Shown here in pieces: positions 1 through 37,863 of a DNA stretch of 45,628 nt. The DNA is from a virus: the IMG/VR virus record IMGVR_UViG_3300009160_003727, positions 1 to 45,628 of that record; one strand, written 5' to 3'. How positions within the stretch are numbered: the first letter of the stretch is position 1; each line of letters begins with the position of its first letter. Position numbers and translations under genes: made by a program. The notes under the pieces are model-generated. The model worked only from the letters and a program-made list of their open reading frames with translations. It made no database searches and was not told where the DNA came from.

Positions 1-1524
1 ATGATCCATGATTTTTCGATAAAAAAACAGGTAAATGATTCTAAGCTGATTACTCAAAAACCGAAAGTTCCAGAGTTAATTATTAAGGCACCTGTTCATA
101 TCATACCTGTCATTGCGCCGATCAAAATCGAAGCCAAGCCCACAATATTGAATGAAAAAACCATTCAAAAACCGATTCCTATTGTGCCCATCGATAAACC
201 AGCCGAAAAGCCGGAAAAAACAAAGCACTTGCTATCAGGCGACATAATCCCCGATGAAAAATATGCCGAATATCATAAAAACATTTATGACAAGAAATAT
301 TATGAAGCAGTTAAGACAAAAGATGACTTAGTGTTAGGCACATTTGAGACCCCTCCTAAGATCAAATCTTTAACTAAAGATGGTGTAGTATATAGAATGG
401 GCGATTTAATTTCTCTCGAAAGGAAACCTATCATGCCGCATCTTGGCCTTGACATTGGCACTAAAACGATCGTAGCTTCATTTAAGAACAAGAACGGTGA
501 TATAAATTATATATCTGAAATTAATGGGTTTTGGCCTTTCGAAAGAGCCACAGCATTTATTGAAAACATGCTTAAAGATCCAACTAAAGTTAGATCCGAC
601 GGCACCAGTAGGCCAGCACATTATTTTAAGCATGAAGAATCAAATCAACTAATCGTGCTTGGACGAGATGCTGAAGAATTAGCCTATTCAAAGAATGATA
701 CGATGAAAAGACCAATGGCTGAAGGCGGAATTACACCAGATGAAATGTCTATGACGGTGCTGAGCAGCATCATCCATGGGATCTTAGAGACCGCAGAACG
801 CGATGTTGGTAAGTTTGATAATAATTTGACATTGTGTTATTGCACGACAGCACCGGCTTTAAATAAAACAAATAATATTGAATATCACGAAAGAGTTATC
901 GATATCATCCTTAAGAGTTATAACTCACAGAGTGCTATAAAACTTCAAAAGATAAAAGAAAGTCATGCGATAGTTCTAAACCAAAGCCCAGACGGCTCTG
1001 GGATCGGCATCAGCTGGGGAGCAGGCACGGTAACGGTGACATATGTTAAGTATGGCTTAGAAGTTTATAGTTTCTGCTGGGTTGGCGCTGGTGACTGGAT
1101 AGACGAGAATGTAGCGATTAGACATGGCTATGATGCACATGCTATGAAAAGCATGAAAAAGAACAGTAAGGAAACTCCAACCACAGTATCAAAAGTCAAA
1201 ATGGACATAGATCTTACCCCCGGCATACAGTATGCCGACAGGCTTCAGTTAGATATATCGCTGCACTATGACGTGCTTATTAATCAAGTAGTGTCAGGTA
1301 TCGTGGCCGGTTTTAAGGAAAATGAGGCGCAGGCAAGAATCGAAAATGGCATTAATGTTTATATGGCTGGCGGCACTAGCAGTCCGAAGGGCTTTGCTGA
1401 GCGTGTGGCTTTAATATTCAATAATAATGAATTACCTTTTGTTTTAAATAAAGTATCTGTGGCAGAAAAGCCACTATTTACCGTTGCGGCAGGGTGCTTG
1501 ACAGCAGCAGAGATGTTCGAATAA
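1..1524 (+). CDS. Actin-fold (ParM/MreB/DnaK superfamily) ATPase with proline-rich N-terminal extension
   Basis: The last 360 residues carry the three nucleotide-binding signatures of the actin/Hsp70 fold: a phosphate-1 loop LGLDIGTKT near residues 148-156 (Asp151), a phosphate-2 loop GISWGAGTVTV near 336-346, and an adenosine motif VYMAGGTSSPKGF near 454-466. The first 145 residues are rich in Pro, Lys and Ile and look like a flexible tail, which is unusual for the family. Phage actins (Alp/ParM types) polymerise to move or position DNA, but an FtsA/PilM-like or chaperone-like role is equally possible; polymerisation cannot be judged from sequence. The window opens on this ATG, so an upstream start cannot be excluded and no ribosome site is visible. 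The stop overlaps the next start (TAATG). The fold is fairly certain; the role is not. Confidence 0.75.
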   Translation: MIHDFSIKKQVNDSKLITQKPKVPELIIKAPVHIIPVIAPIKIEAKPTILNEKTIQKPIPIVPIDKPAEKPEKTKHLLSGDIIPDEKYAEYHKNIYDKKYYEAVKTKDDLVLGTFETPPKIKSLTKDGVVYRMGDLISLERKPIMPHLGLDIGTKTIVASFKNKNGDINYISEINGFWPFERATAFIENMLKDPTKVRSDGTSRPAHYFKHEESNQLIVLGRDAEELAYSKNDTMKRPMAEGGITPDEMSMTVLSSIIHGILETAERDVGKFDNNLTLCYCTTAPALNKTNNIEYHERVIDIILKSYNSQSAIKLQKIKESHAIVLNQSPDGSGIGISWGAGTVTVTYVKYGLEVYSFCWVGAGDWIDENVAIRHGYDAHAMKSMKKNSKETPTTVSKVKMDIDLTPGIQYADRLQLDISLHYDVLINQVVSGIVAGFKENEAQARIENGINVYMAGGTSSPKGFAERVALIFNNNELPFVLNKVSVAEKPLFTVAAGCLTAAEMFE

Positions 1525-2204
1525 TGAATATAATTCATGTCGATGGTAGTTTGGTAGCTATTTTAATAAAAGAAACTATATATATCATCGACATGGATAA
1601 TTTTACGGTCCATGACCAGATTGGTGCACGGCTAGCTATCCAAAACATTGATGACTGGTTATTTAAAAACACCTTATGGGCTCATGGCATTTTTAATTTA
1701 AAGCTTTTTGTTAATTTCTTCTTACAAGGACGTGAATCTATAGTAATTAAAGACTTAGGCGTTTTACTGTCAGAATTTATCGCTCACCTTTTTAAAAATG
1801 ATCAGATCGGCCAATTGTTGAAAATGTATGATGTTGAATTACTAAATTTAGAAACAATTGACAGAGTAGTCTTACCTAATCTTAGAGATAATTTTGAAGC
1901 ACACCGTCTAAAAAATGGTGAATTAGGTCTCGAATTGTTCCTTAGAAGACTAAGAGACCGAATCGCTATATTAAATCCAAACGAAACCAGAGTCATTGAT
2001 AGCTTTCTAAGTAGGTTAAAAGAGCAGCATGTCGATATAAAGATGGCTATACCCGATGGCCTTTTAGAACTAGCGAATAATTTTTTATGCACGCAAGATG
2101 TTTATACTTCTAACATAAGATACCCCAATATCATCGAATCTTTTGAGAAAATTAAAGCTCCAAAAGGTAAGAGAAATGGATTAGAAACCGTATTATCTTC
2201 ATAG
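1524..2204 (+). CDS. Unknown phage protein, weak resemblance to a Pol I-type 3'-5' exonuclease domain
   Basis: This gene encodes 226 residues starting at the ATG that overlaps the previous stop codon by one base. A longer reading frame from 1494 exists but would run back into the upstream gene. I do not recognise it with confidence. The segment WAHGIFNLKLF, followed by an acidic and hydrophobic stretch, faintly recalls the Exo II motif (HNxxFDxxxL) of family A polymerase exonuclease domains, but the expected Asp is Asn and no clear DxE or YxxxD motif is seen. Translational coupling to the actin-like ATPase and position just ahead of the split polymerase suggest an early replication-region protein. 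Treat the exonuclease idea as a hint only. Confidence 0.6.
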   Translation: MNIIHVDGSLVAILIKETIYIIDMDNFTVHDQIGARLAIQNIDDWLFKNTLWAHGIFNLKLFVNFFLQGRESIVIKDLGVLLSEFIAHLFKNDQIGQLLKMYDVELLNLETIDRVVLPNLRDNFEAHRLKNGELGLELFLRRLRDRIAILNPNETRVIDSFLSRLKEQHVDIKMAIPDGLLELANNFLCTQDVYTSNIRYPNIIESFEKIKAPKGKRNGLETVLSS

Positions 2205-2217
2205 TATAGGAGATAAT

Positions 2218-3618
2218 ATGGAATATCAAGGTTCATCAGATTTTGTTCATCTTCACTCTCACACACTTTATAGCATGCTTGATGGTGTGGCCTCTCCGGC
2301 CCAATATGCCGAAGCTTGTTATAAAAGGAAGTACCAAGCGATGGCTATCACCGAACACGGCCATATGGCCAGTGTTCCTGAAGCTTACGCTGCTTTTAAA
2401 CAATATGGTATCAAATACATCCCTGGGTGCGAAATATACTATAATGATTTTGAACTAAAAAGGCAAGAGCTTTTGGCAAGCGGAATAAATGTCAGATCGC
2501 TAGAATGGAGAAAAGAGAATCCAGAGCTAGCAGGAAGAATTATCAGAAATAGACATCTCACAGTAATTTGCAAAAACAAGACCGGATTTGAAAATCTCTT
2601 AAAGTTAACAACTCAAGCATATGAGACAGGCCTGTTCGGCGTATCTATTAAACAGTATAATCGCATATGGTTTGAAAAGTTATGTGAATATCGCGAAGGA
2701 CTTATTATATTATCAGGATGTCTAAATGGACCTATAAGTCATGAATTGCGTACTAAATCGATAGTAAATAAAGCAGGCGATGTCATCAGAGAAATAAGCC
2801 GAAAAGAAAGGCTTGAAAACGCTATCGCCAATATAAAAAAATTTAAAGAAGCGTTTGGAGAAGACTACTACATAGAACTACAGATGCCTGGTGTTGAAGG
2901 CGACATGTTTGTGTTTCAGACATCTATTATGCTGGCAGACCATTTCAAGATTAAGACCGTGCTGGCTAATGATTCTCATTACATGGAAAGAAAAGATTTT
3001 CAAATCCAAAAGATCATGATGGCGATAGCTCAAGACGTAACTGTTGACTCTCCTGATTTATTTCATACAAACAGCGACGAGCAATACTTCAAACAGCGTA
3101 GTGAATTATGGAGTAGATATAATGAGACTGAATATTCCAAAGGGTATACGGCTAGAGAATTCGAACTAATGTGTGATCATACTTTAGAAATAGCCGACAA
3201 ATGCGAAAATATCGAATTTGATACGGATCCAAAAATACCGACCATCGTAGACGCTGATAATGAATTACGGCGCTTGGTCGCATCAAAGCTTATATCGTTA
3301 GGACTTCATAAAAATGAACAAAAACACTTGATCGATGGTAGAGAAGTTACCTATCTAGACCAAGCTAAAATCGAATTAAATCGTTTTATAGAAAAAGGTT
3401 TCGCCAGCTATTTTCTCATTACTAAGAATATTATAGAGTACGGTAAAGAACAAGGTTGGCCGTTCACTGCTAGAGGTAGCGCTGGAGGCTCCTTAATTTG
3501 CTACTTATTAAATATTACATCAGTCGACCCTCTTTCGTGGGGTCTTTCTTTTGATAGATTTCTTGCACCGAGCCGCGGTGGCTATATGCTTAATGTCAAG
3601 ATGACTAAAGGAGATTAG
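2218..3618 (+). CDS. DNA polymerase III alpha-like, N-terminal half (PHP domain and start of palm)
   Basis: This is the front half of a family C replicative DNA polymerase. The PHP domain is recognisable: HLHSHTLYSMLDG (residues 11-23), AITEHGHM, GCEIYY and NDSHYM correspond to the metal-binding motifs of DnaE PHP domains. The palm follows, with the phosphate-binding loop ARGSAGGSL and FDRFLAPSRGG, the equivalent of ERFLNPER in bacterial DnaE. The protein stops 11 residues later, just before the catalytic Asp motif, which sits at the start of the other half (4885-7608). A strong site AGGAG lies six bases before the ATG. The end of the frame contains the AAGGAG that serves the next gene, so the break looks settled rather than a fresh mutation. 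The two products presumably assemble into one polymerase. Confidence 0.93.
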   Translation: MEYQGSSDFVHLHSHTLYSMLDGVASPAQYAEACYKRKYQAMAITEHGHMASVPEAYAAFKQYGIKYIPGCEIYYNDFELKRQELLASGINVRSLEWRKENPELAGRIIRNRHLTVICKNKTGFENLLKLTTQAYETGLFGVSIKQYNRIWFEKLCEYREGLIILSGCLNGPISHELRTKSIVNKAGDVIREISRKERLENAIANIKKFKEAFGEDYYIELQMPGVEGDMFVFQTSIMLADHFKIKTVLANDSHYMERKDFQIQKIMMAIAQDVTVDSPDLFHTNSDEQYFKQRSELWSRYNETEYSKGYTAREFELMCDHTLEIADKCENIEFDTDPKIPTIVDADNELRRLVASKLISLGLHKNEQKHLIDGREVTYLDQAKIELNRFIEKGFASYFLITKNIIEYGKEQGWPFTARGSAGGSLICYLLNITSVDPLSWGLSFDRFLAPSRGGYMLNVKMTKGD

Positions 3619-3619
3619 C

Positions 3620-4051
3620 TTGCAGAAGTATTTATTACACGCTTTGAACACACATTTAAAAGTCATGCAAAAGCCTACTGAAACATTATGTGTATTCTCG
3701 CTTAAATTCATCGATGTTCTTATAGATGACGATAAAGTCAGAGCTGAGAAAGAATCACTAGATTTGTTAATAAATATTCAAAATAATATAATTTCTAGCA
3801 TTGTCGAAACTATTGACCGCCTAGAGAAAGAAGCTACCGATTCTACTAAAGTACTGGGATCGGCGATGCTTAATACAAGAAAATCTATTTATTCTCATAC
3901 AATAAATTTAAAATTAGTAGATGTAAGTAATCTAGAAGATAGATATAACAAAGCTATAGTTGAAATCGCTAAAGCGATGAGGTTATTTAATCTTTGTGGT
4001 CTTTCTGAAGCAATTAAAATAAATGATGTAAATGGGAACCAGATATGTTAG
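3620..4051 (+). CDS. Unknown helical protein inserted between the polymerase halves
   Basis: This gene encodes 143 residues and starts at TTG, supported by AAGGAG (3608-3613) six bases upstream, inside the last codons of the polymerase N-terminal half. The protein is mostly predicted helix, with charged heptad-like stretches around residues 45-75 (VETIDRLEKEATD) and 100-130. It has no cysteine cluster, signal peptide or nuclease motif. It is not a recognisable homing endonuclease. It overlaps the next gene by seven bases. Its place inside a split polymerase gene suggests a replication-linked role or a passenger of the event that split the gene; nothing in the sequence decides this. Confidence 0.7.
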   Translation: MQKYLLHALNTHLKVMQKPTETLCVFSLKFIDVLIDDDKVRAEKESLDLLINIQNNIISSIVETIDRLEKEATDSTKVLGSAMLNTRKSIYSHTINLKLVDVSNLEDRYNKAIVEIAKAMRLFNLCGLSEAIKINDVNGNQIC

Positions 4052-4491
4052 AGATGCAAATAAATAGATTAGATAATTCCAAGATTAATTCTAAAATCGT
4101 CGTTACTTTAATAAAAAATAATGGCAAAAAAATGAAGACCCAACGGCGTGATATCGCTTTTAAATTGAAAATGACTGATGATACCATATATAAGTATCAA
4201 GCTATCCTAGTTGGTCTATCTGCGATAAAAGATGTTAATCAATCGATAAGAATCAGCATGTTGGGGTTTGAATCGAATGATTTATATGGTACATCAAACG
4301 ATAAACAGCTATATTTCGACGAATTAAAAAGACGTATTATCAAAATATGCCAACGTCATAATAATGTATTTTTTGATGCTAATATGATAGCTTTAGATAA
4401 TGATTATGTCAATATAATTAAAAAGTATTTAGTATCACAATCAGAGTACCATGATACCGGTACAGTCTTAATCGATAAATCTAAGGTTTAA
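4045..4491 (+). CDS. Possible degenerate RNase H-fold protein
   Basis: This gene encodes 148 residues and its start overlaps the previous stop by seven bases. After a basic N-terminus, the order of elements (beta strands, then a YKYQAILVGLSAI helix, a strand with ESNDLYG, a helix, then residues resembling the carrier-domain end of RNase HI) recalls the RNase H/RVT_3 fold. There A-E-x-x-A-x-x-x-G-L is followed by a strand ending GDS. Here the helix Glu is missing and the second acidic position is altered, so catalysis would be doubtful. This is a fold-level guess by eye only. It is the second of three genes lying between the two polymerase III alpha halves. Confidence 0.6.
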   Translation: MLEMQINRLDNSKINSKIVVTLIKNNGKKMKTQRRDIAFKLKMTDDTIYKYQAILVGLSAIKDVNQSIRISMLGFESNDLYGTSNDKQLYFDELKRRIIKICQRHNNVFFDANMIALDNDYVNIIKKYLVSQSEYHDTGTVLIDKSKV

Positions 4492-4553
4492 TACTATGGC
4501 TGTTTGGCACAACACAAGCTTAGATCTTTTTATGTATATTGAGATATAAAATT

Positions 4554-4898
4554 ATGGATCATAAAGGTGAATATGATAAATATGCTTTCATTATAATGGA
4601 AGCGCAAACCGATAATATTGTCAACATAGTACGATTAAAGTCGAACGAAGAAAGACTGAAAACCATTAAAAGCATACGTTCTAAAGGGCAATATTTATTT
4701 TACGCTATGACGCACCAAGACGAAAAAACCAAGAGGGTCACTATAAAAAGGCCCTTTGTCGTCGATTTTGATTCAGTTCCTTCAGCTGAGGAATCAAAAT
4801 GTATTGAAAATGATATAAAGAAGCTTAGCTGCAAAAAATGTGGCAAAAGTTTTACTTCTACTTCTGGGCTAACGAACCATCTAAATGCAAAACATTAA
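4554..4898 (+). CDS. Small protein with one C2H2 zinc finger
   Basis: This gene encodes 114 residues from the ATG at 4554. An in-frame TTG at 4539 would add five residues, and neither start has a strong ribosome site. The C-terminus is a textbook C2H2 finger: CKKCGKSF, then 12 residues between the second Cys and the first His, ending in HLNAKH (Cys-x2-Cys-x12-His-x4-His). Such single fingers occur in phage proteins and usually bind DNA or a protein partner. The N-terminal part is a small mixed fold of unknown type. The last 14 bases overlap the start of the polymerase C-terminal half, so the two are probably translated together; it may be an accessory factor of the split polymerase. Confidence 0.75.
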   Translation: MDHKGEYDKYAFIIMEAQTDNIVNIVRLKSNEERLKTIKSIRSKGQYLFYAMTHQDEKTKRVTIKRPFVVDFDSVPSAEESKCIENDIKKLSCKKCGKSFTSTSGLTNHLNAKH

Positions 4899-7608
4899 AT
4901 CTTGGGAAGAAATTGTCGAAAAGGCTGGAGAGTTGGTTACCGATAAACCGAAGATTTATAAAGACAGACTAAAATTCGAAATATATGAAATCGAAAAGCA
5001 AGGGGCAGAACGCTACTGGTTAGAATTAGTGACTGATGGAACGACTTTCGATGCAAACCCGAATCGTCTATTACTACCATACCTTTTAAATCTAGTTTCT
5101 GTCGACCCAATCTCCACAGACCATAGCGGCATCATGACAAGCATATCTGCCAATGATGTTTTAAAATACAAAGACCATAACAATGGTAAAATGCCAACAG
5201 GAATCTACAGAGATTCTGACATGCCGGACATCGATATAGATTGCTTGCCTGGGGCCAGAGATCATTTAAAAGAATACGTAATTTCTAAATATGGCCAGAA
5301 TTCAGAAGATAGTTATGGATCTGTATGTAGCGTTGGCACATGGCAAACTTATAAATTCAAATCTGCAATAATCGATGTCTCTGTGGCTCTTGGAATAATG
5401 TCTAGATTTGATGCCGAAAGAACGACCACACAATTACCAGAGCACGCAGATGATTTGCCGGAAAATGGTATATCAGTCTGCAGAGGTAAATATTTAAAGG
5501 AAGGTGTCGAGATAGAATGTGGCACTATTCACGGTGATGCTACTTGCCCATCTTGTAAGCAATCCATCACGGATGCTCCGACTATTGGTCAGCTTATTGA
5601 AGAACTACCAGTTCTCAAAGAATTCGCGATAAAAAACCCTGAGATCATAGCATCAGCGATCAAACTAGTAGGCAGAATTAGAAACATGGGCATGCACGCC
5701 GGTGCTTTACTAATAACAGACAGAGCGTTGTTTGGCAATATACCTATGGCCAAGAGCAGTAATAAGGGCTATTGGGTAAGCATGTGGACAGAAGGTAGAA
5801 GCACCCAGCTCTCAAAATTTGGGTATGTGAAATGGGACTGGCTTGGTCTTAAAACCTTAGAATATATATTTAGGTGTTGCGAGATGGTTAAACTTAACCG
5901 CGACATCAATTTTGGCGAAAATTTGTCTGGCTGGGAAGACATCGATCCTAAGCAACGTAAAGCCGGCTTTTTTATCGATGCTTCTGGTGTTAAACACATT
6001 ATCAGCCTCGACGACGAAGGGGCTCTAAAGCTAGCAAATAAGCAGAAATGCGATGGTATTTTTCAGTTCGACACTGAATTAGCCATGTCTTTGCTGGCTC
6101 ATGGCGTTAGGAATTTCGAAGACTTAATGTTAATCAATGCGATGGGCCACCCAGGGCCAATTGCCGCTCTACCAGAGACAATGGCAAATCGTGACGATCC
6201 CACGATGGCATGGAAAAAACGCATGCATCCAGAAGTCTATAATATTCTTAAAGAAACTTATGGACAACTGGTTTATCAAGAGCAATTAACGCAGCTTTGG
6301 CAGAGATTAGCTGGATTTACTGCGCCTGAAGCTCAAGAAACGAGGAAGGCCGTTGCTAAGAAATGGACACACAAATTAAGAAGCGTAGAACAGAAATGGG
6401 TCGCTGGTGCTTCTAAAACCATCGGCGAAGACGAAGCTCGCACTATTTGGTCCAAAATGGTATCATTCGGTCGTTATGCATTTAATAAATCACATTCTGT
6501 AGCTTATTGTTTGGTAACCCTACGATGCTTGTTCCTAAAAGCGCATTTTGCGCCTGAGTTTTGGGCATCTGTCATGAATGATTGCCATCCAGATAAGCTG
6601 GTACGTTATATGGGTGTTGCAAGATCAGAAGAATGGAAACCGACAGCAATCACTAAACTCGGTTCGAGCAGATCAGATGATCCATTGCGCTTTGAAGCTA
6701 TCGACATTAACAATTTATCATTAAAGTTTATAGTAAAAGATAACACGATATTTGTTGGTGTCAGTAGCATAAAAGGCTTTGGCGAAAAAATAGCTGAGTG
6801 CTTAATCACTGCACACAAATATATAAACATGGATGATTTTATTTTAAAGACCGGGATAAAATCTAAAACAGTGTTAGAACGGTTAATTAAACTTGGGGCC
6901 TTTAGAAATCTTGAAAGACACAATAATAGCAAGGCTTTGTGGGTTTATTATCAAACGAAGTATGGCAATGGGCCAGATGCAAAAGAGACTAAAAGCTTCA
7001 TCTCCAACCTCATTATTTCTAAACAAGGATGGAATGATGGCTCTATTGCGGCTGAGAGGGAAAGACTCGCCAGTGAATACAGATTGATCTATCCAAAGAA
7101 AAAAGTTATACCTAAAAAATTACTTAATTGGAACCCTGAACCGATCATCGATTTTGATGCCGTTCTTGGCGCTATCGGAGATGATTTTAGTTTTGAAGAA
7201 AGACTACAATTTCAGAACGATTACTTAGGATATTACATCGACTCGCCTCTAGGATTATTTAGTTGCAGGGGTGATCTAACGATTGCTGCAGCAAAGACCA
7301 ATGCGAAGTCCGGCCAAGACATCATAGCTATCGAAGGAATAATTGTAAATATAGAATATGCTACATCAAAGAATAATAAACCGTACGCTAAAATATCGAC
7401 ATCAGATGGTATGTTAAAAACCAGTATTATGGTGTGGTCCAAAGAATTGTCGGGGTTAGATAAAACCAAATTGATGATTGGCGCCGGAATTAGAGTGATC
7501 GTGGATTATGATGGCGAGCGAAATAGTTTTTCATTACGACGCAATACTTCGATAAACATACTGAAGAGAAAGCCAACTAATGCAACTGCCGACGAAAGAC
7601 GGGATTAA
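4885..7608 (+). CDS. DNA polymerase III alpha-like, C-terminal half (catalytic palm, fingers, HhH, OB fold)
   Basis: This 907-residue protein completes the family C polymerase. Catalytic palm residues are in MPDIDID (113-119), with the third Asp in KWDWLGLKT (Asp318). GRIRNMGMHAGALLIT, IFQFDTE, GHPGP and YQEQ match DnaE palm and fingers motifs, and FGRYAFNKSHSVAY is the typical fingers signature. A C-terminal OB fold lies near residues 790-870 (AIEGIIVNIEY). Two CxxC-like cysteine groups near 197-226 form an insert that may bind zinc. The first 110 residues precede the catalytic motif and contain YLLNLVSVDPIS (66-77), which resembles the end of the other half (Tyr429-Ser440 there), suggesting that the split involved a partial duplication. 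No intein motif is seen. The enzyme would be the main replicase together with the N-terminal half. Confidence 0.95.
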   Translation: MQNIKSWEEIVEKAGELVTDKPKIYKDRLKFEIYEIEKQGAERYWLELVTDGTTFDANPNRLLLPYLLNLVSVDPISTDHSGIMTSISANDVLKYKDHNNGKMPTGIYRDSDMPDIDIDCLPGARDHLKEYVISKYGQNSEDSYGSVCSVGTWQTYKFKSAIIDVSVALGIMSRFDAERTTTQLPEHADDLPENGISVCRGKYLKEGVEIECGTIHGDATCPSCKQSITDAPTIGQLIEELPVLKEFAIKNPEIIASAIKLVGRIRNMGMHAGALLITDRALFGNIPMAKSSNKGYWVSMWTEGRSTQLSKFGYVKWDWLGLKTLEYIFRCCEMVKLNRDINFGENLSGWEDIDPKQRKAGFFIDASGVKHIISLDDEGALKLANKQKCDGIFQFDTELAMSLLAHGVRNFEDLMLINAMGHPGPIAALPETMANRDDPTMAWKKRMHPEVYNILKETYGQLVYQEQLTQLWQRLAGFTAPEAQETRKAVAKKWTHKLRSVEQKWVAGASKTIGEDEARTIWSKMVSFGRYAFNKSHSVAYCLVTLRCLFLKAHFAPEFWASVMNDCHPDKLVRYMGVARSEEWKPTAITKLGSSRSDDPLRFEAIDINNLSLKFIVKDNTIFVGVSSIKGFGEKIAECLITAHKYINMDDFILKTGIKSKTVLERLIKLGAFRNLERHNNSKALWVYYQTKYGNGPDAKETKSFISNLIISKQGWNDGSIAAERERLASEYRLIYPKKKVIPKKLLNWNPEPIIDFDAVLGAIGDDFSFEERLQFQNDYLGYYIDSPLGLFSCRGDLTIAAAKTNAKSGQDIIAIEGIIVNIEYATSKNNKPYAKISTSDGMLKTSIMVWSKELSGLDKTKLMIGAGIRVIVDYDGERNSFSLRRNTSINILKRKPTNATADERRD

Positions 7609-8122
7609 ATGCGACGGCTGCGGGCTTCAGTTTCATGAAGATTTTACTTATTATTCGATAGATTTTAGAAGCGCTAAATCAAAATTTGGGCAACACTTAT
7701 CATTGAGAGATCTAGACTCAGCACCAATGGTCGACACTTTTGATTATTGCAGTATGTGTTATGAGAAACTCCAAGACAAGATAGTAGAAATAAACCAAAA
7801 AACATCTCAGAAAACTGGCTCAAGATATTGTGATCTTTCTGGACAAGATCTGATGCAGTTAAAAACATATTACTATGCTACCATAACTGGAGCTACAGTC
7901 AAACAAACAGGTGTACCATTTACTTGTGAACAGTGCGGCCTTCAAGCGCACACCCCGACAACAGTATGTAAGTGCGGGTCGGTTAAATATGTTAGGAAAG
8001 CCGACGTACATACTGATAAAAAATTAATAGAAATCTTCATAACACCAGATATATTTAATAGCTTTGCCGTTAGAAGAGAAAAGCATAAACAAGAAGGAAG
8101 TAATTGGAATGTTACCAGCTAA
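7580..8122 (+). CDS. Zinc-ribbon protein, unknown
   Basis: This gene encodes 180 residues and starts inside the last 29 bases of the polymerase gene. Cysteine pairs CDGC (residues 11-14) with CSMC (about 59-62), and CEQC (about 115-118) with CKC (about 128-130), indicate two zinc-binding modules of rubredoxin or zinc-ribbon type. No catalytic motif is recognised. The overlap with the replicase gene suggests co-translation and a role in replication or transcription, but no partner can be named. It is one of several small zinc proteins in this region. Confidence 0.75.
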   Translation: MQLPTKDGIKCDGCGLQFHEDFTYYSIDFRSAKSKFGQHLSLRDLDSAPMVDTFDYCSMCYEKLQDKIVEINQKTSQKTGSRYCDLSGQDLMQLKTYYYATITGATVKQTGVPFTCEQCGLQAHTPTTVCKCGSVKYVRKADVHTDKKLIEIFITPDIFNSFAVRREKHKQEGSNWNVTS

Positions 8123-8624
8123 CCCATATGATTTGCATGAAATACTCTTAAATAACGTCTTAATGCATGCGAGACCGATAGAGTGGAATTCTCACATGGT
8201 CGATCAGCATACTAACAAGAGTGCGCTTGGCGATCAAGTAAGAGCCACAAAGGCCGTCCTTACATGTCCTGATTGTGCATCTTTAGTCGAAATATTGGAT
8301 ATGTATGATCTTAATGGTTATTATTATTGCGAATGTTTTAAAGGTTATAAAAAGACTAGAGATCAGCTGCAGACAGACGAAATAAATTATGAAGACCCAT
8401 TTCAGAATCCATTTTCAGAAGATCTGAATCTAGAATCCTTTCTATACCCACAGATAGCTAGTACACCGGTGAAAACTGGAACCATTAAAGCTGATAAAAA
8501 AGTAAAGCCCAAAAAATTATGTAAGGTAGATATCAAAGCTAAGAATAATGATGTCATCGCTAATGAAGATAACATCATGAAATTGGCGAGTGAACCATTC
8601 AATGACGAAGATCTATTAGAATAA
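8109..8624 (+). CDS. Unknown protein with a CxxC...CxC motif
   Basis: This gene encodes 171 residues from the ATG at 8109, chosen because AAGGAAG (8094-8100) lies eight bases upstream. An in-frame ATG at 8064 has no ribosome site. A CPDC pair followed about 25 residues later by CEC suggests a single zinc site (roughly residues 58-88). The second half is low in complexity, with an acidic patch, a Lys-rich stretch (KADKKVKPKK) and an acidic tail ending FNDEDLLE. Tails of this kind often mediate contacts in phage replisomes, but nothing more specific can be said. It overlaps the previous zinc-ribbon gene by 14 bases. Confidence 0.72.
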   Translation: MLPANPYDLHEILLNNVLMHARPIEWNSHMVDQHTNKSALGDQVRATKAVLTCPDCASLVEILDMYDLNGYYYCECFKGYKKTRDQLQTDEINYEDPFQNPFSEDLNLESFLYPQIASTPVKTGTIKADKKVKPKKLCKVDIKAKNNDVIANEDNIMKLASEPFNDEDLLE

Positions 8625-8628
8625 GCAT

Positions 8629-9558
8629 ATGAACTACATTTTAGGGTCAGGCATAGTTGGTCTAACTGCTCGACACATCCTAGGAGCTGATTGGCAAGTA
8701 GTTCCATTTTATAAAAGCAGATTTTTTTCGAGCAATCCACCATTAGATGATAACTTCTTGTGTAGACATGAGCGGTTGGACTATATTATTGATAAATTAT
8801 TGCCAGGTAAAATAGTTAATTCTATATTTTATAAAAGATCTTGGTCGATGAATGGCATATTATCAACGAACGGCGATAAGATAGTTATTAATGATTGGCT
8901 CGACAAAGTTTATGGCAATGATGTGCCAGGACAAAGTTTACCTTACTATTTGCAAAAAGACATATTTCAGATTTATAATAATGTCAGGATCAGCGAAATT
9001 TACAAGGCACTGTTAGACTTATACTTACCGGTCCTAAAACAGAACGCTACTGCCGGCTTGCCGACTTCAATCAGAGATGGATACATATATTTTGGCGAAG
9101 AAAGAAAGCCATATGATAATATAATTAGCACAATCCCAGCCGATGTTTTATATAACCTTACTGGACGTACAAGTTTATTAAAATCTAAGGATATGCATTA
9201 TGTGCATTTGTTTACCGAGGAATTAGATTTTGAAGGCGCTAATCAAATGATGGTCGCTGATAGAGATATCGAATTTTTTAAAGTATCGAACATAGCTCCA
9301 AGTCGATATTTGTTTTATTTTTTAAAAGACATGTTACACCCTGGCATATATATGCAAAATTTTCTTAAGAAATTCGAAATTATAGACGGTACTATGGTTA
9401 AACAGGCTTTAACACTAGGAAATACGATAGATATAAGCGTATTCAAGAAAGAGAATATACATCCGATAGGTAGCTATGCTATATGGGACCCTTGCTTGGA
9501 TGTTGCGAGCTGTTTTTTAAGATTATTAAATACCCTTGACACCGGATTTAAAAAATGA
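8629..9558 (+). CDS. FAD-dependent UDP-galactopyranose-mutase-like flavoprotein
   Basis: The N-terminus MNYILGSGIVGL gives a clean GxGxxG dinucleotide-binding turn (residues 6-11) at the very start, typical of UDP-galactopyranose mutase and related amine-oxidase-fold enzymes. A second family hallmark, NIISTIPADVLYNLTG, lies in the middle of the protein and corresponds to the 'vStiP' strand that approaches the flavin. At 309 residues it is shorter than bacterial UGM (about 370), and active-site arginines cannot be assigned by eye. It is translationally coupled (ATGA overlap) to kdsB, so a role in nucleotide-sugar or glycan metabolism is likely. The exact substrate is unknown and it could be a related oxidoreductase. 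Confidence 0.75.
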   Translation: MNYILGSGIVGLTARHILGADWQVVPFYKSRFFSSNPPLDDNFLCRHERLDYIIDKLLPGKIVNSIFYKRSWSMNGILSTNGDKIVINDWLDKVYGNDVPGQSLPYYLQKDIFQIYNNVRISEIYKALLDLYLPVLKQNATAGLPTSIRDGYIYFGEERKPYDNIISTIPADVLYNLTGRTSLLKSKDMHYVHLFTEELDFEGANQMMVADRDIEFFKVSNIAPSRYLFYFLKDMLHPGIYMQNFLKKFEIIDGTMVKQALTLGNTIDISVFKKENIHPIGSYAIWDPCLDVASCFLRLLNTLDTGFKK

Positions 9559-10271
9559 TTAAATCGAATGCTATAATAATTCCAGCAAGATTAAAATCGA
9601 CTAGGCTCAAGAAAAAATTACTTATCGAAGTTAAAGGCAAACCAATTATCCAATACACTATTGAGAATGCTCTAGCGAGTAAGAAGAAAAATCGTATTAT
9701 TGTAGCGACAGAGGATTTAGATATTAAAAGATTCGTCGATAGTCTCGGATATGATGTCGACTGTGTTCGGACACCCCAATTTAATAACGGCACGGAACGA
9801 GTGCGACACATATCAAAAGAATTACTTAATGGTTATGCTAGAGTGGTAAATCTTCAAGCTGATGAGCCATTGTTTAACGCAGATAGTATCGACGCCGTGT
9901 TTGGTGAAATAAGCAATGACATTGTCTTGACTAGCGCATACTCCTTTATTAAGAGTGAAGCTGAATATAATGATCCGAATACCGTAAAAGTGGTATTAAA
10001 CGTATTCGACATGGCGCTATATTTTAGTAGATCATCAATACCACACGGTGGTTTTACTTCAGCATGCAAACATATCGGCATATATGGTTACAAGAGAGAC
10101 GTACTTGCTGATTTACCAACCAGTAGCAATTATCAAAAATCAGAAAATCTTGAACAATTGTCTTGGTTAGAGAACGGCTACGCTATAAAAATGGTTAGAA
10201 TCAATTATGAGACAATAGGTATTGACACGCCAGAAAATATCGAAGCTTTTAAGGCTACTCTTGAGAAGTAA
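9555..10271 (+). CDS. kdsB: 3-deoxy-manno-octulosonate cytidylyltransferase (CMP-Kdo synthetase)
   Basis: This enzyme activates Kdo with CTP to CMP-Kdo, the donor for lipopolysaccharide inner core or capsule. The 238 residues match the family length (about 250) and its motifs in order: IIPARLKSTRL near the N-terminus (nucleotide loop), GKPIIQYTIENA, VATEDLDI, a GTERV segment, NLQADEPL, DPNTVKVV, YFSRSSIP, HIGIYGYKRDVL and GIDTPENIEA near the end. The start overlaps the flavoprotein stop (ATGA). The 3' end overlaps a minus-strand gene by 17 bases. Carriage by a phage is uncommon and implies either remodelling of host surface glycan or use of Kdo-like (possibly other nonulosonic) sugars in a phage-directed glycan. 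A related CMP-sugar synthetase specificity remains possible. Confidence 0.93.
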   Translation: MIKSNAIIIPARLKSTRLKKKLLIEVKGKPIIQYTIENALASKKKNRIIVATEDLDIKRFVDSLGYDVDCVRTPQFNNGTERVRHISKELLNGYARVVNLQADEPLFNADSIDAVFGEISNDIVLTSAYSFIKSEAEYNDPNTVKVVLNVFDMALYFSRSSIPHGGFTSACKHIGIYGYKRDVLADLPTSSNYQKSENLEQLSWLENGYAIKMVRINYETIGIDTPENIEAFKATLEK

Positions 10272-10665
10272 GCGTATCGCTGTCCGACGGCATACTTTCA
10301 AGATAATAAGCAAATTCATCCTTATTTTCGACCTTGCGAAGATATTCAAACTCGCCCTTCCTTCTTAGATAATTTCCGAACCTCATAATCATCGTCGAAA
10401 ATGTTTTGAATCTAGAAGGAATATATTGCGAAAGATCGGTTTTTGATAATCTGCAATTATTATCTTTAAATAATTTATAAATGAAATCATTATCGACATC
10501 TTTTTCTTTTTTCTTGTCTTCAACAGCGCCGGCTAAATCTTTAATGTCTTGAATTGTGTCCTTTAGGATTTCGCCGGCTTTACCGGTTAGATGTAAAGCA
10601 TTTTCTGTCGCTAATTCATCTATATTAATATTTAGATCAATGTCGATGATAGTGTACTTAGTCAT
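10255..10665 (-). CDS. Unknown small acidic protein
   Basis: This minus-strand gene encodes 136 residues. The start is supported by AAAGGA on the minus strand just upstream (within 10666-10676). The centre is charged and helical (EDKKKEKDVDNDF), followed by a basic patch (RFGNYLRRKGEFEYLRK). No known domain is recognised. It converges on kdsB with a 17-base antiparallel overlap and diverges from the next plus-strand gene with only 11 bases between the two start codons. A promoter for it must therefore lie inside the neighbouring coding sequence. A regulatory function is possible but unsupported. Confidence 0.72.
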   Translation of the reverse strand: MTKYTIIDIDLNINIDELATENALHLTGKAGEILKDTIQDIKDLAGAVEDKKKEKDVDNDFIYKLFKDNNCRLSKTDLSQYIPSRFKTFSTMIMRFGNYLRRKGEFEYLRKVENKDEFAYYLESMPSDSDTLTSQE

Positions 10666-10676
10666 GGAGGTCCTTT
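10666..10676. promoter_or_regulatory. Eleven-base divergent gap with a ribosome site on each strand
   Basis: The gap GGAGGTCCTTT between the divergent ATGs carries GGAGG for the plus-strand gene at 10677 (six-base spacing) and AAAGGA for the minus-strand gene at 10665 (five-base spacing). The two ribosome sites overlap on opposite strands, and no room is left for a promoter. Confidence 0.7.
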
Positions 10677-11477
10677 ATGAAATGTTTTTTATGTACCAGC
10701 GATGCTTTCGATAATTCTCAATTAACAATACAGATGGAAGACGGCAAGAAAGTCGATATCTATCTATGCGAAGTACATTCTGAATCCTCTATTAAACAGC
10801 TTAAGGAAGCCTATGTCCAAAAGAAAGTAGATTTAGATAATTTAATAAAACAAGCCAAAGAGCTAGGATATAGTATAGATCTGGACAGTCTCTTGAATCC
10901 ATCTAGCAGATCTATCCTGACGGCCACGGAGATACACGTAGCACCAGAAGTTTTACAGATTCCTATTAAACCGGCTACCCAGCCTGCTAAAGTACAAATT
11001 AGGCAAGAAATAATAACGGAAGACGACGAAAACATGATTCCGACCGAAATTATAGACAAAAAGGTAATGCGGTCAGTCGGTGGTAATACTGAAATGGGTA
11101 ATGTGTCGGCGCATCAATCTTATGATTTTAATAGTCTCGGAGACAAGCTGCCAGAAAACGCTAGAATTGGTAAAGTAAAAATGGCTATGGTCGAAGGGCG
11201 CGGTGGCCAGCCCATCGCCATACCACAGAAGCGGGTTGATGGGCTTGGCGAAACGCATATCATGATAAATAAAGCAGAAAACGATGATAAGTTACAAGCA
11301 CGATTTAAAAAGATGGCTCAGGAGAGCAAATCAGATAAATTCGCTAACTTCTCCCAGAATGGATATGCAGACACGACTAGACCTTGTCCGATTTGCAGGG
11401 GCAGTGGGTTGGTTAGGAACGGTAAAAATGAATCAAGTTGTCCAAAATGCGCTGGCGGTGGTATGATATCTATCTAA
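10677..11477 (+). CDS. Protein with DnaJ-type cysteine-rich zinc motif
   Basis: This gene encodes 266 residues, starting after GGAGG. The C-terminus holds CPICRGSG and CPKCAGGG about 19 residues apart, the CxxCxGxG repeat pair of DnaJ central domains and related zinc proteins. The N-terminus has a second possible zinc site (CFLC near residues 3-6 with CEVH near 31-34). The middle is low-complexity and probably flexible. No J domain is present, so this is not a true DnaJ. It may be a holdase-like or single-strand-binding adaptor near the recombination genes, but the function is unknown. The 3' end overlaps the convergent minus-strand gene by eight bases. Confidence 0.8.
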   Translation: MKCFLCTSDAFDNSQLTIQMEDGKKVDIYLCEVHSESSIKQLKEAYVQKKVDLDNLIKQAKELGYSIDLDSLLNPSSRSILTATEIHVAPEVLQIPIKPATQPAKVQIRQEIITEDDENMIPTEIIDKKVMRSVGGNTEMGNVSAHQSYDFNSLGDKLPENARIGKVKMAMVEGRGGQPIAIPQKRVDGLGETHIMINKAENDDKLQARFKKMAQESKSDKFANFSQNGYADTTRPCPICRGSGLVRNGKNESSCPKCAGGGMISI

Positions 11478-11691
11478 TAGTATAAGGTCTATTACCCATA
11501 CCAAAGAATTGGCGGTGTCTTTCACTTACTGGCACCCCTGTTGAATATGAAGTATCACCCTTCTGACTATTTCCCATATCAAAACCAGACGAAGGATTAA
11601 ACCCTGAAGGCTGTCGCCCAGAATTAAAATAATTCTCGCTGTTTAAGACTTCACGCATTTTTTGCCCTAGAAAGCCTTCATTCAAATTCAT
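11470..11691 (-). CDS. Unknown small Gly/Ser/Asn-rich protein
   Basis: This minus-strand gene encodes 73 residues and overlaps the end of the upstream minus-strand gene by 14 bases. A ribosome site AAAGGA lies eight to nine bases before the start. Composition is rich in Gly, Ser, Asn and Phe (FNPSSGFDMGNSQKGD), so most of it is probably disordered. No domain is recognised. It is probably the second gene of a two-gene minus-strand operon. Confidence 0.62.
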   Translation of the reverse strand: MNLNEGFLGQKMREVLNSENYFNSGRQPSGFNPSSGFDMGNSQKGDTSYSTGVPVSERHRQFFGMGNRPYTIR

Positions 11692-12196
11692 CGTGTATAT
11701 CCTTTACATTTTTCTTGTTAAGGTCGGTCTTGATGATGTCGAATTCAGAAGCTTGTTCTGGCTGCGATACCTCTTTAATACCATCCATATCAGAATTTAA
11801 TCCTGAGTCCTGCTCTGCCCAAGCATCGCGACCATCTCTTAACTCTTCTAATAATTTGTCTGCTAGATCTAGAGCTTTTGCGATTTCAGAGGAATCAATA
11901 GCTTGGGCTGTAAGCTCTTTTTCCATAGCGCTATTAAATGTAGTTGATCCAAAATTCTTATAACTATGCGCCTTATTAAAAGCCTGCAATATGGGCCCTA
12001 TATAAATTAATTTAGCGTTAAACAATTTGTCTCGATATTTGGAATAAATATCATTATGAATAAATTCTAAGCCATTTACACGCTCTAGATCATTAAGATC
12101 ATCTTTATCATGACCTTTGAGGCCTAATTGGGCATCTTGATTCAGGTAAATATCAAGTGCTTCTAAAAAAGTCTTTTGTTTCTTATTAAGGCTCAT
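11678..12196 (-). CDS. Unknown helical acidic protein
   Basis: This minus-strand gene encodes 172 residues. The second of two adjacent ATGs (12196 rather than 12202) is preferred because the GAGGA site is six bases from it and directly abuts the first. The sequence is largely helical, with the charged segment DLADKLLEELRDGRDAW, and ends in an acidic, Lys-Asn-rich tail. No recognised domain. It heads the minus-strand pair and diverges from the plus-strand gene at 12251. The 54-base AT-rich gap between them is the only obvious place for both promoters. Confidence 0.7.
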   Translation of the reverse strand: MSLNKKQKTFLEALDIYLNQDAQLGLKGHDKDDLNDLERVNGLEFIHNDIYSKYRDKLFNAKLIYIGPILQAFNKAHSYKNFGSTTFNSAMEKELTAQAIDSSEIAKALDLADKLLEELRDGRDAWAEQDSGLNSDMDGIKEVSQPEQASEFDIIKTDLNKKNVKDIHDEFE

Positions 12197-16352: not shown

Positions 16353-17552
16353 ATGAAGCCAATTCTATTCGCTATCAAAAGAGGAAGACAAGTCGCATAT
16401 CCAGCCATCATAGGTATTAAACGCGACCAAAAGATTTACAAGCAAATCCTTTTTGATAATAGCAACGCAAAATCTATAAGCGATATAAGGATTGACCAGT
16501 CCAAGATAAAAGCATTATTCGACCATGCGGTTAGCACCAGATGCGCGATAGTCACCAACGATCGCGCATCACTGATCGCCGCTATGGGTTATAACAATAG
16601 AGCTATCGCCGACAACATCTTCGATCATAACGAAATAATTCATGAAACAAGTGCCCTCGATGAATTTTTAGCATCAACAGATGCTTCCGTTCAAGAACCA
16701 TATAAAAAGCTATTGTTTGACGCTGGGTGCGTTTATGATAAACTCTCTGACTTGCCAATTTATGTAAATTACACTCCTCTTAAGTCATCTTGGTCACATG
16801 ACACATTTACTGGCAGGAGCAAGTGCACAGGTTTTAATATTCAAGGCTATAACATGCCTGATTTTATCACAAGGGACGGGATCTTCGAAGATAAAGTATT
16901 ACTGCATTTCGACTGGATCTGCGCTGATCTAAGAATAGCATCAGTTGTATCAGGAGATGATGAATTAGAATCAGCTTTTAGGCATGGTGATCCATACGAG
17001 TATCTTTTTGATCGCGCAGGGGACATGTTTACTGATCGCAAGGATAGCAAAATAGCTCTACTTAAGGCAATAAATTCTCTGAATTTTGATAGTAGCATAT
17101 TTGATATATGCTATGGAGATCTTAGAACTTGGCTTATAGAGTGCGCCCATAAGCTTACTGAGAGTGAACCCTTGGAGACATTGCTGGGCCGTAAATTTAT
17201 TATCCCAAAGGAAAAGACCATATTATCAGGTATTAATGGTGTTCTGCAAGGATCTATAGCCCATGCTATGCAGAACACCATTACGAAAGTTAATGCTTTA
17301 TTTCCAAGACATATTATATGTGACATCCATGATTCTCTAGTAATGTCTTGTGAAAACGACCGAAGTAGCATACAATATATGATAAATAGTGTAAAATCGA
17401 TAATGTCGAAACCGCTTGAAGGGCTGATAGATAGGGATATATATTTTCCGTTAAGATACGGCATTGGCAAGAAATGGCGAGAATATAAATATAGTAATAT
17501 ACAGAGGGAACATGAACAACAAGAAACTGCAGAAGATACGTCAGAGGGCTAA
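16353..17552 (+). CDS. Compact family A DNA polymerase (Pol I polymerase domain only)
   Basis: The last 250 residues follow the family A polymerase order: TGR (153-155) and FNIQGYNMPD after it (as SSSDPNLQNIP), motif A LLHFDWICADLRIAS with Asp187, SGDDELESAFRHGDPYEY, a motif B region RKDSK with IALLKAINS, a TLLGRKF element, LQGSIAHAMQNTI, motif C HDS (His326, Asp327), and YGIGKKWREY at the end. At 399 residues it is far smaller than Pol I or T7 polymerase, and no exonuclease domain is recognisable in the N-terminal 140 residues. Motif B has Asn-Ser where a Tyr/Phe-Gly is usual, and motif A has Asp-Leu-Arg for Glu-Leu-Arg, so activity or fidelity may differ. It may be a repair or accessory polymerase beside the family C enzyme. 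Confidence 0.82.
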   Translation: MKPILFAIKRGRQVAYPAIIGIKRDQKIYKQILFDNSNAKSISDIRIDQSKIKALFDHAVSTRCAIVTNDRASLIAAMGYNNRAIADNIFDHNEIIHETSALDEFLASTDASVQEPYKKLLFDAGCVYDKLSDLPIYVNYTPLKSSWSHDTFTGRSKCTGFNIQGYNMPDFITRDGIFEDKVLLHFDWICADLRIASVVSGDDELESAFRHGDPYEYLFDRAGDMFTDRKDSKIALLKAINSLNFDSSIFDICYGDLRTWLIECAHKLTESEPLETLLGRKFIIPKEKTILSGINGVLQGSIAHAMQNTITKVNALFPRHIICDIHDSLVMSCENDRSSIQYMINSVKSIMSKPLEGLIDRDIYFPLRYGIGKKWREYKYSNIQREHEQQETAEDTSEG

Positions 17553-37855: not shown

Positions 37856-37863
37856 AGCAATAT

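Follow-up and report, generated by a model that had tools for sequence, protein, structure and literature searches.

A family C DNA polymerase encoded as two overlapping proteins in a widespread group of large phages

Two chains for one polymerase

In a widespread group of large phages, the DNA-copying enzyme consists of two overlapping proteins and not of the usual single long chain. We describe this arrangement for the IMG/VR virus record IMGVR_UViG_3300009160_003727, whose 45,628 nucleotides are referred to as the window and provide the numbering for all coordinates. An N-terminal protein (N-half) and a C-terminal protein (C-half) together contain the parts of a family C polymerase (DnaE, Pol III alpha). 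The explanation that we hold to be rather probable is that an ancestral dnaE gene was duplicated, that the copies underwent reciprocal loss, and that their products work as an obligate heterodimer, i.e., a two-subunit family C polymerase with a composite active site. The enzyme is probably the replicase of the phage. The features on which the argument rests are the following:

2218-3618, plus strand: N-half, 466 residues, with PHP domain and N-terminal palm (deoxynucleoside triphosphate (dNTP)-binding half); from the open frame, Pfam, AlphaFold2 (AF2) and omega values
3472-3492, plus strand: GS motif of the N-half (RGSAGGS, residues 419-425), to which homology assigns dNTP binding
3577-3615, plus strand: tail of the N-half from Gly454, GGYMLNVKMTKGD, likely a relic of the PDxD strand with both aspartates lost (Asn and Lys instead)
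4885-7608, plus strand: C-half, 907 residues, palm with catalytic aspartates, fingers, helix-hairpin-helix (HhH) and oligonucleotide-binding (OB) parts; from the open frame, Pfam and VIA
4885-5217, plus strand: C-head, residues 1-111 of the C-half, in which the N-terminal palm recurs in degenerate form, with NPNRLLLPYLL in place of the GS loop
5227-5241, plus strand: catalytic DIDID, residues 115-119 of the C-half, aligned to SMPDIDTD (460-467) of Taq Pol III
5836-5838, plus strand: third carboxylate, Asp318 of the C-half, present in 17/17 rows and aligned with the LLKMDFLGLRTL region of Taq Pol III

The division is sharp. Pfam PHP matches residues 11-222 of the N-half, and the 260 positions of DNA_pol3_alpha are cleanly distributed, with 14-98 in the N-half and 99-260 in the C-half, which is also matched by DNA_pol3_finger and HHH_6. 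In the alignment with Taq Pol III, residue 459 is the last one covered by the N-half profile, and that of the C-half takes over at residue 460 (SMPDIDTD); the first piece of the C-half alone scores only 10.0 bits, the whole chain reaches an E-value of 2.2e-44. The AF2 model of the N-half (17 alignment rows, mean predicted local distance difference test (pLDDT) score 81) superimposes on residues 5-453 of Taq Pol III (2hpi) with a Z score of 33.9 and a root mean square deviation (rmsd) of 9.8 over 384 aligned residues. For the C-half (mean pLDDT 80), comparison with DnaE chains in VIA gave Z scores of up to 22.8 (2hnh, rmsd 8.2, 470 aligned), and OB folds were matched at about residues 796-896; the absence of a fold from a VIA listing proves nothing. 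The thumb presumably also lies in the C-half, at the place given by the domain order that we assume for the family. Thus, PHP domain, palm motifs, fingers, HhH and OB are all present, and the one family C feature not found is the single polypeptide. The pol beta-like palm with GS motif, DxD and third aspartate is complete but distributed over two chains. The initial annotation had located the split in the palm between the equivalent of ERFLNPER and PDIDID, and the Pfam cut at 98/99 and the 48 contigs described below confirm this position.

Both halves are intact genes under strong purifying selection. In a comparison of the window with locus L005, omega (the ratio of nonsynonymous to synonymous substitution rates) was 0.013 for the N-half and 0.004 for its palm segment, 0.028 for the C-half and 0.062 for the C-head; these values are approximate, because the number of synonymous substitutions per site (dS) in this comparison amounts to 0.67-1.29. 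A 274,625-base IMG/VR contig contains the same stretch, with 11/11 compared genes 100% identical, and both halves were found in another contig at 98% and 95% identity.

Occurrence in viral and other contigs

Relatives were collected in six scans of viral contigs and one scan of genome contigs, and all counts refer to the matches listed, i.e., the best 80 loci per scan. Among 167 viral loci that were classed, 74 encode a single chain and 93 do not. An N-half followed by a C-half on the same strand, 442 to 5855 bases apart, was present in 48 IMG/VR contigs, many of them closely related. This set was obtained after removal of duplicates, incomplete loci and other types: ten loci with one half off the contig or distant (L085, L087, L088, L104, L119, L126, L127, L131, L142, L166), three of another type (L136, L141, L150), eight lacking matches (L149, L186, L192, L195, L196, L209, L213, L217), 24 loci repeating a contig, and the contig of L037 and L043, in which the C-half is cut by the contig end. 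Motif counts over the 48 contigs rest on patterns, and the tails of the N-halves were located by RGG (47) or RGS (1).

Three further contigs carry the halves unlinked, about 56 kb apart and on opposite strands in G010, about 16 kb apart in G009 and about 14 kb apart in G011. Since 48 contigs share the same arrangement and three have the halves apart, a sequencing error is excluded and a joining intron or intein is unlikely. A frameshift or sequencing error, which the initial annotation had named as the finding that would join the halves, was rejected on the basis of the 48 contigs (many near copies, yet with 38 distinct 14-residue tails) and the omega values; the same order in all 48 contigs and the low omega values also bear out its view that the arrangement is stable.

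The split polymerases fall into two clades, clade 1 including the window and clade 2 being about 24-31% identical to it. A comparable split outside both clades, on a long branch, occurs in L150, a single contig. Among 50,697 annotated phage records, 1151 matched the N-half and 1261 the C-half, all with less than 60% identity. Seventeen phage regions around such matches were opened, and MT838122 was left out of the analysis. One long chain is encoded in eleven of these phages (LRRHood, Lannister, LR756511, S-CoN_Ph10, Planchet, Nova, VRE9_2, MD-2021a, Lenus, RHEph10, MTATph1); dnaE is broken at points other than the split of the window in Terapin, Papyrus, KLEB27-3 and AM12, and near that split point in Alicyclobacillus phage KKP_3916. 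In the genome-contig scan, identity was at most 30% among the best 80 loci where most of the N-half was matched, and of 37 loci inspected (L225-L261), 36 have one open reading frame (ORF) that matches both halves; together with 81 viral and phage ones, they make up 117 single chains.

Reciprocal loss of palm motifs

Each half retains what the other has lost. In the N-half, R419, G420, S421, G424 and S425 of the GS motif are conserved in 17/17 rows, and the GS pattern is found in 48/48 N-halves and in 0/48 C-heads. Conversely, the end of the N-half reads RGGYMLNVKM where the PDIDID strand would stand, and the position of these residues suggests that they are likely a degenerate PDxD strand. DxD is absent from 48/48 N-half tails, and those of clade 2 mostly have K- or R-x-R. 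Folded alone, residues 451-466 of the N-half have a pLDDT of 28-29.

In the C-half, D117 and D119 are present in 17/17 rows and D115 in all 16 rows that cover it; Asp318 we take to be the third catalytic residue. DxD occurs in 42/48 C-halves, and in the remaining six the C-half is broken again at this point and its head is encoded by a separate ORF. These small C-head ORFs belong to L099, L107, L109, L110, L111 and L115. In L099, L110 and L115 they have similar tails that resemble the start of a Hint domain or intein without a clear partner, and the remainder of the C-half starts near DIDID.

The initial annotation took the arrangement for a plain division of one chain and overlooked that the palm segment of the N-half recurs in degenerate form in the first 110 or so residues of the C-half. 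This second copy makes the halves overlap, over a length of about 80 residues, and each has lost motifs that the other keeps. Apart from the missing GS loop, residues 1-111 of the C-half can be aligned to the beginning of the canonical palm, e.g., NGMVLPYLLGITSIDPI in L038. An hhalign comparison of 23 C-heads with 96 single chains (L150 excluded) gave a probability of 98% and an E-value of 3e-13, with at most 0.8% in 30 column-shuffled controls, and a hidden Markov model (HMM) of the single chains scored C-heads with up to 18.9 bits, the best of 950 shuffles reaching 5.3. PHROG 405 matches residues 42-439 of the window N-half and 356-1051 of the L038 C-half, i.e., the two matches overlap. In place of the GS loop, an NxNxL loop is found in 44/48 C-heads when a loose pattern is applied.

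How the two chains may work together

The GS motif occurs only in N-halves and DxD only in C-halves, and duplication with complementary loss fits this distribution. The ancestral dnaE gene would have been duplicated in whole or in part. In copy one, the PHP domain and the dNTP-binding palm half would have been retained and the catalytic strand with all that follows it lost, while copy two would have kept a shortened palm start without GS motif, the catalytic strand, fingers, HhH and OB. As each protein keeps a different half of the active site, the two probably must join to copy DNA. Catalytic aspartates contributed by the C-half and a triphosphate loop contributed by the N-half are most simply read as the shared site of a heterodimer. 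The N-subunit would then provide in trans the triphosphate loop RGSAGGS, in addition to the PHP nuclease with its probable proofreading role, and the C-subunit would provide the three Mg-binding aspartates and the DNA-binding parts. The zones in which AF2 has low confidence, i.e., the tail of the N-half and the palm stretches 101-160 and 261-320 of the C-half (pLDDT 47-65), lie near where the chains would meet. Further observations speak for this explanation: the PolB profile PF00136 matched in 0/8 records, all possibly fragments, and L053 and L039 have inteins at RG/S of the GS motif, inteins generally favoring functional sites.

The PHP domain may be active. A signature HHDHEHCDH is defined for active PHP domains (PMC12926913), and the pattern HHDHEH(C/H)DH is complete in 15 of the 16 rows that cover it, the window included, the exception having Tyr at the first His. 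Profiles for an RNase_T-type exonuclease and for Pol III beta matched 0/2 large records (274 and 408 kb, possibly fragments). The intact signature together with these missing matches suggests that PHP is perhaps the proofreader.

Several observations weigh against a shared-site heterodimer born from duplication. The first profile comparison of C-heads with single chains, with 7 and 5 rows, was weak (probability 3%, E-value 0.014). With the single-chain HMM, three of 19 C-heads scored below the best shuffle and four were unreported, PHROG 405 matches the C-half of the window itself only from residue 111, and only 2/11 DnaE rows in the VIA table start before residue 80 of the C-half. A missing partner chain is not the only cause of low pLDDT, alignments of only 17 rows being another, and the C-head, predicted fairly confidently by AF2 (blocks of 76-89 over residues 1-80), may occupy the place that the palm of the N-half would require. 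Finally, the main replicase may be another enzyme than the split one, as a short PolA-like protein is also encoded:

16353-17552: PolA-like protein, 399 residues, matching only positions 248-381 of the DNA_pol_A profile

Relatives of this protein occur in 7/8 records and it could share replication.

The C-head is also the point of departure for a different, in our opinion unlikely, explanation: labour might be divided with no shared site, the C-half polymerizing alone with its N-x-N-x-L loop and the N-half serving as PHP proofreader whose palm is merely a docking surface. A fold-like segment with its own loop retained in 44 of 48 C-heads, an omega of 0.062, the AF2 confidence just mentioned, the intact PHP signature, and the lack of matches for RNase_T exonuclease and Pol III beta in the two records searched, possibly fragments, would all agree with this. 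Such a C-half would nevertheless have to do with a palm from which the GS pattern is gone in every one of the 48 C-heads, while RGSAGGS persists in every N-half examined and the surrounding palm segment, at an omega of 0.004, seems constrained beyond the needs of docking. It is very improbable that we are dealing with a single gene interrupted by an intron or inteins whose halves are rejoined after transcription or translation. In KKP_3916, dnaE is broken at almost the same point and followed by an ORF that is LAGLIDADG-like by eye, and relatives of the window have inteins at several other sites. Rejoining would, however, yield a duplicated palm segment and would have to cope with the unlinked halves of three contigs, one pair being 56 kb apart on opposite strands. 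Rfam gave 0 matches at the gathering score in positions 1-12000, and a group I or II intron between the halves was rejected on account of this result and of the unlinked halves. No intein was recognized at the end of the N-half or the start of the C-half; this was judged by reading alone, the N-half of the window ending 13 residues past the palm segment and the C-half opening with a palm homologue.

If the active site is indeed shared between the chains in a heterodimer, the enzyme is a natural test of a replicase surviving division across its catalytic center and of how one enzyme can become two dependent subunits through gene duplication. Mutation of the dead copies kept in each half could serve to check the duplication model.

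One split or two

Quick trees were calculated from 51 rows, after seven of 34 chosen single chains had been dropped because the motif pattern failed; a second tree test was run without six long or odd rows, and the test of all splits covers the C part. The C tree rejects all 23 splits as one clade, with a p-value of 7.8e-5 in the approximately unbiased test (p-AU), whereas the six clade 2 splits held together are not rejected (p-AU 0.312 for C and 0.519 for N). The history could therefore comprise two splits, or one split and re-fusion. Independent splits in clades 1 and 2, and perhaps a third in L150, as opposed to one ancient split with later re-fusion in LR756511 and L128, appear rather unlikely to us, even though the single chains L021 (LR756511.1) and L128 group with clade 2, the N tree leaves a sister relationship of clades 1 and 2 open, and L150 stands elsewhere in both trees. 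The C tree unites clades 1 and 2 with a support of 99 in the SH-like approximate likelihood ratio test (SH-aLRT), and both clades share the RGG tail and the NxNxL loop. Moreover, the C-heads of both clades have a shortened Y-to-helix stretch of 16-18 residues (22/22 readable rows of 24) compared with 29-42 residues in 13 canonical rows, the latter being those correctly anchored, since in many other rows the canonical pattern stopped at an earlier tyrosine or did not match. As re-fusion predicts, the loop of L021 and L128 is long (36-37), like that of clade 2 N-halves. Because of the shared short C-head stretch and the long loop in L021 and L128 we favor one ancient split followed by re-fusion, which these sequence features make likely. 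The full picture, an ancient obligate-heterodimer replicase in two deep phage clades, each subunit retaining the dead palm element of the other, and re-fused at least once, is offered as a tentative proposal.

Relation to known polymerases

To the initial annotation, a family C polymerase divided at exactly this point was not known to be described. A split there has already been published: the minimal Pol III alpha of group 2.2 T4-like jumbo phages, among which Atu_ph07 is named, consists of two proteins, one NTP-binding and one Mg-binding (Iyer et al. 2021, PMC7824862). In these phages, the proteins are minimal, their genes are distantly located, and a family B polymerase is present (PMC7824862). 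The window resembles group 2.2 in that NTP-binding and Mg-binding parts are on two proteins, and differs from it by PHP, fingers, HhH and OB, by mostly neighboring genes and by the overlapping degenerate palm copy. PHP and other Pol III domains place the enzyme of the window outside the minimal family. In GAP32 and RaK2, which we assume to be group 2.2 members, and in Atu_ph07 (3/3), phrog_11127 finds a putative minimal N-unit of about 171 residues; we infer from its size, its place and the annotation in GAP32 that this is the N-unit of Iyer et al. It ends at PF07733 position 95-98, the N-half of the window at 98. The C-unit of group 2.2 was not found with the profiles used here.

Bacterial DnaE or Pol III alpha (structures from Taq, Escherichia coli and Mycobacterium tuberculosis) has the same fold and motifs in one chain instead of two overlapping ones. 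In cyanobacteria, the split-intein DnaE is likewise encoded in pieces, which, as in other fractured genes, are spliced into one protein; at the junction in the window no intein was recognized by reading. Split inteins and fractured genes are mentioned in PMC3919608 and in the reference list of PMC6892783. LR756511.1 (595 kb), 56% identical to the clade 2 N-half and 39-45% to the C-half, encodes one chain of 1179 residues with GS and DxD together and is perhaps re-fused.

We found no description of such a complete split DnaE in the literature searched, which mostly excluded subscription papers. New here are the complete PHP-bearing version, the overlap with reciprocal loss and the probable re-fusion. 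Searches based on single chains can mis-annotate such replicases. The family phrog_7513 (461 positions), listed with unknown function, matches the N-terminal half of DnaE and covers N-halves almost to their end; the matches of phrog_12219 to C-halves begin at the catalytic strand. Among the proteins scanned, both gave their best scores with the third split lineage, L150.

The three-gene cassette

As annotated initially, three small genes (3620-4898) lie between the halves, the third with a C2H2 finger and overlapping the start of the C-half by 14 bases:

3607-3613, plus strand: Shine-Dalgarno-like AAAGGAG within the last codons of the N-half (GGAG at 3610-3613, 6 bases before TTG at 3620), predicted by reading
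3620-4051, plus strand: cassette gene 1, no known family, starts with TTG
4045-4491, plus strand: cassette gene 2, degenerate member of an RNase HI-fold family
4539-4898, plus strand: cassette gene 3, C2H2 finger, first ATG at 4554; zf-C2H2 25.7 bits (cut-off 25.2)

Gene 1 and its homologues (group A6) gave Pfam matches in 0/15 members. The family profile of gene 2 (A5) matches RNase HI with a best E-value of 8.3e-6, and Pfam RNase_H is found in 4/16 members; the copy in the window alone has no RNase_H match and aligns poorly with its family. In the comparison with L005, omega was 0.145 for gene 1 and 0.025 for gene 3.

The cassette was found only in clade 1. An ORF with a C2H2 finger precedes the C-half in 14/20 clade 1 loci examined (L056 among them), none being seen in L034, L035, L036, L038, L040 and L053, and eight split loci of clade 2 yielded no homologue of genes 1-3 (E-value 1e-3; for gene 3 the search was without a positive control). 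The initial annotation had proposed to test whether the inserted genes travel with the split in relatives; from this distribution the cassette is probably not the cause of the split. Because the eight clade 2 loci gave no match, it is probably younger than the split, unless clade 2 has lost it. Genes 1 and 2 are situated directly before the C-half in G010 (L087), one of the contigs with unlinked halves, a finding that had suggested that the cassette travels with the C-half. This was dropped in view of G009, where a homologue of gene 2 lies about 2 kb after the N-half (L166) and far from the C-half, so that no general rule on linkage can be given.

Neighboring genes and other broken polymerases

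Inteins or intein-broken genes were recognized by reading in L014, L039, L053, L056, L061 and L116 at several conserved polymerase sites, including RG/S of the GS motif (L053 and L039) and the FNK/SH motif. In L136 and L141, a DnaE of the single-chain type is broken at the GS motif with apparent split intein halves. The pieces of dnaE in phage KKP_3916 (L073, OQ846916.1) are annotated as hypothetical proteins. Large ORFs directly after the N-half in L035 (3356-5191, 611 residues) and L053 (9914-11803, 629 residues) have similar starts and perhaps encode homing endonucleases.

Upstream of the polymerase, the window carries an actin-like gene (1-1524; Pfam Volactin, E-value 7e-38), homologues of which are found near the N-half in many relatives. 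The C-half is followed by genes for two small cysteine-pair proteins (180 and 186 residues, 7580-8624), the first overlapping its end; such proteins are encoded beside the C-half in many relatives and are possible further subunits. Two large proteins (1768 and 873 residues) with RCC1-like and propeller repeats, encoded at 32549-40485, are perhaps virion proteins.

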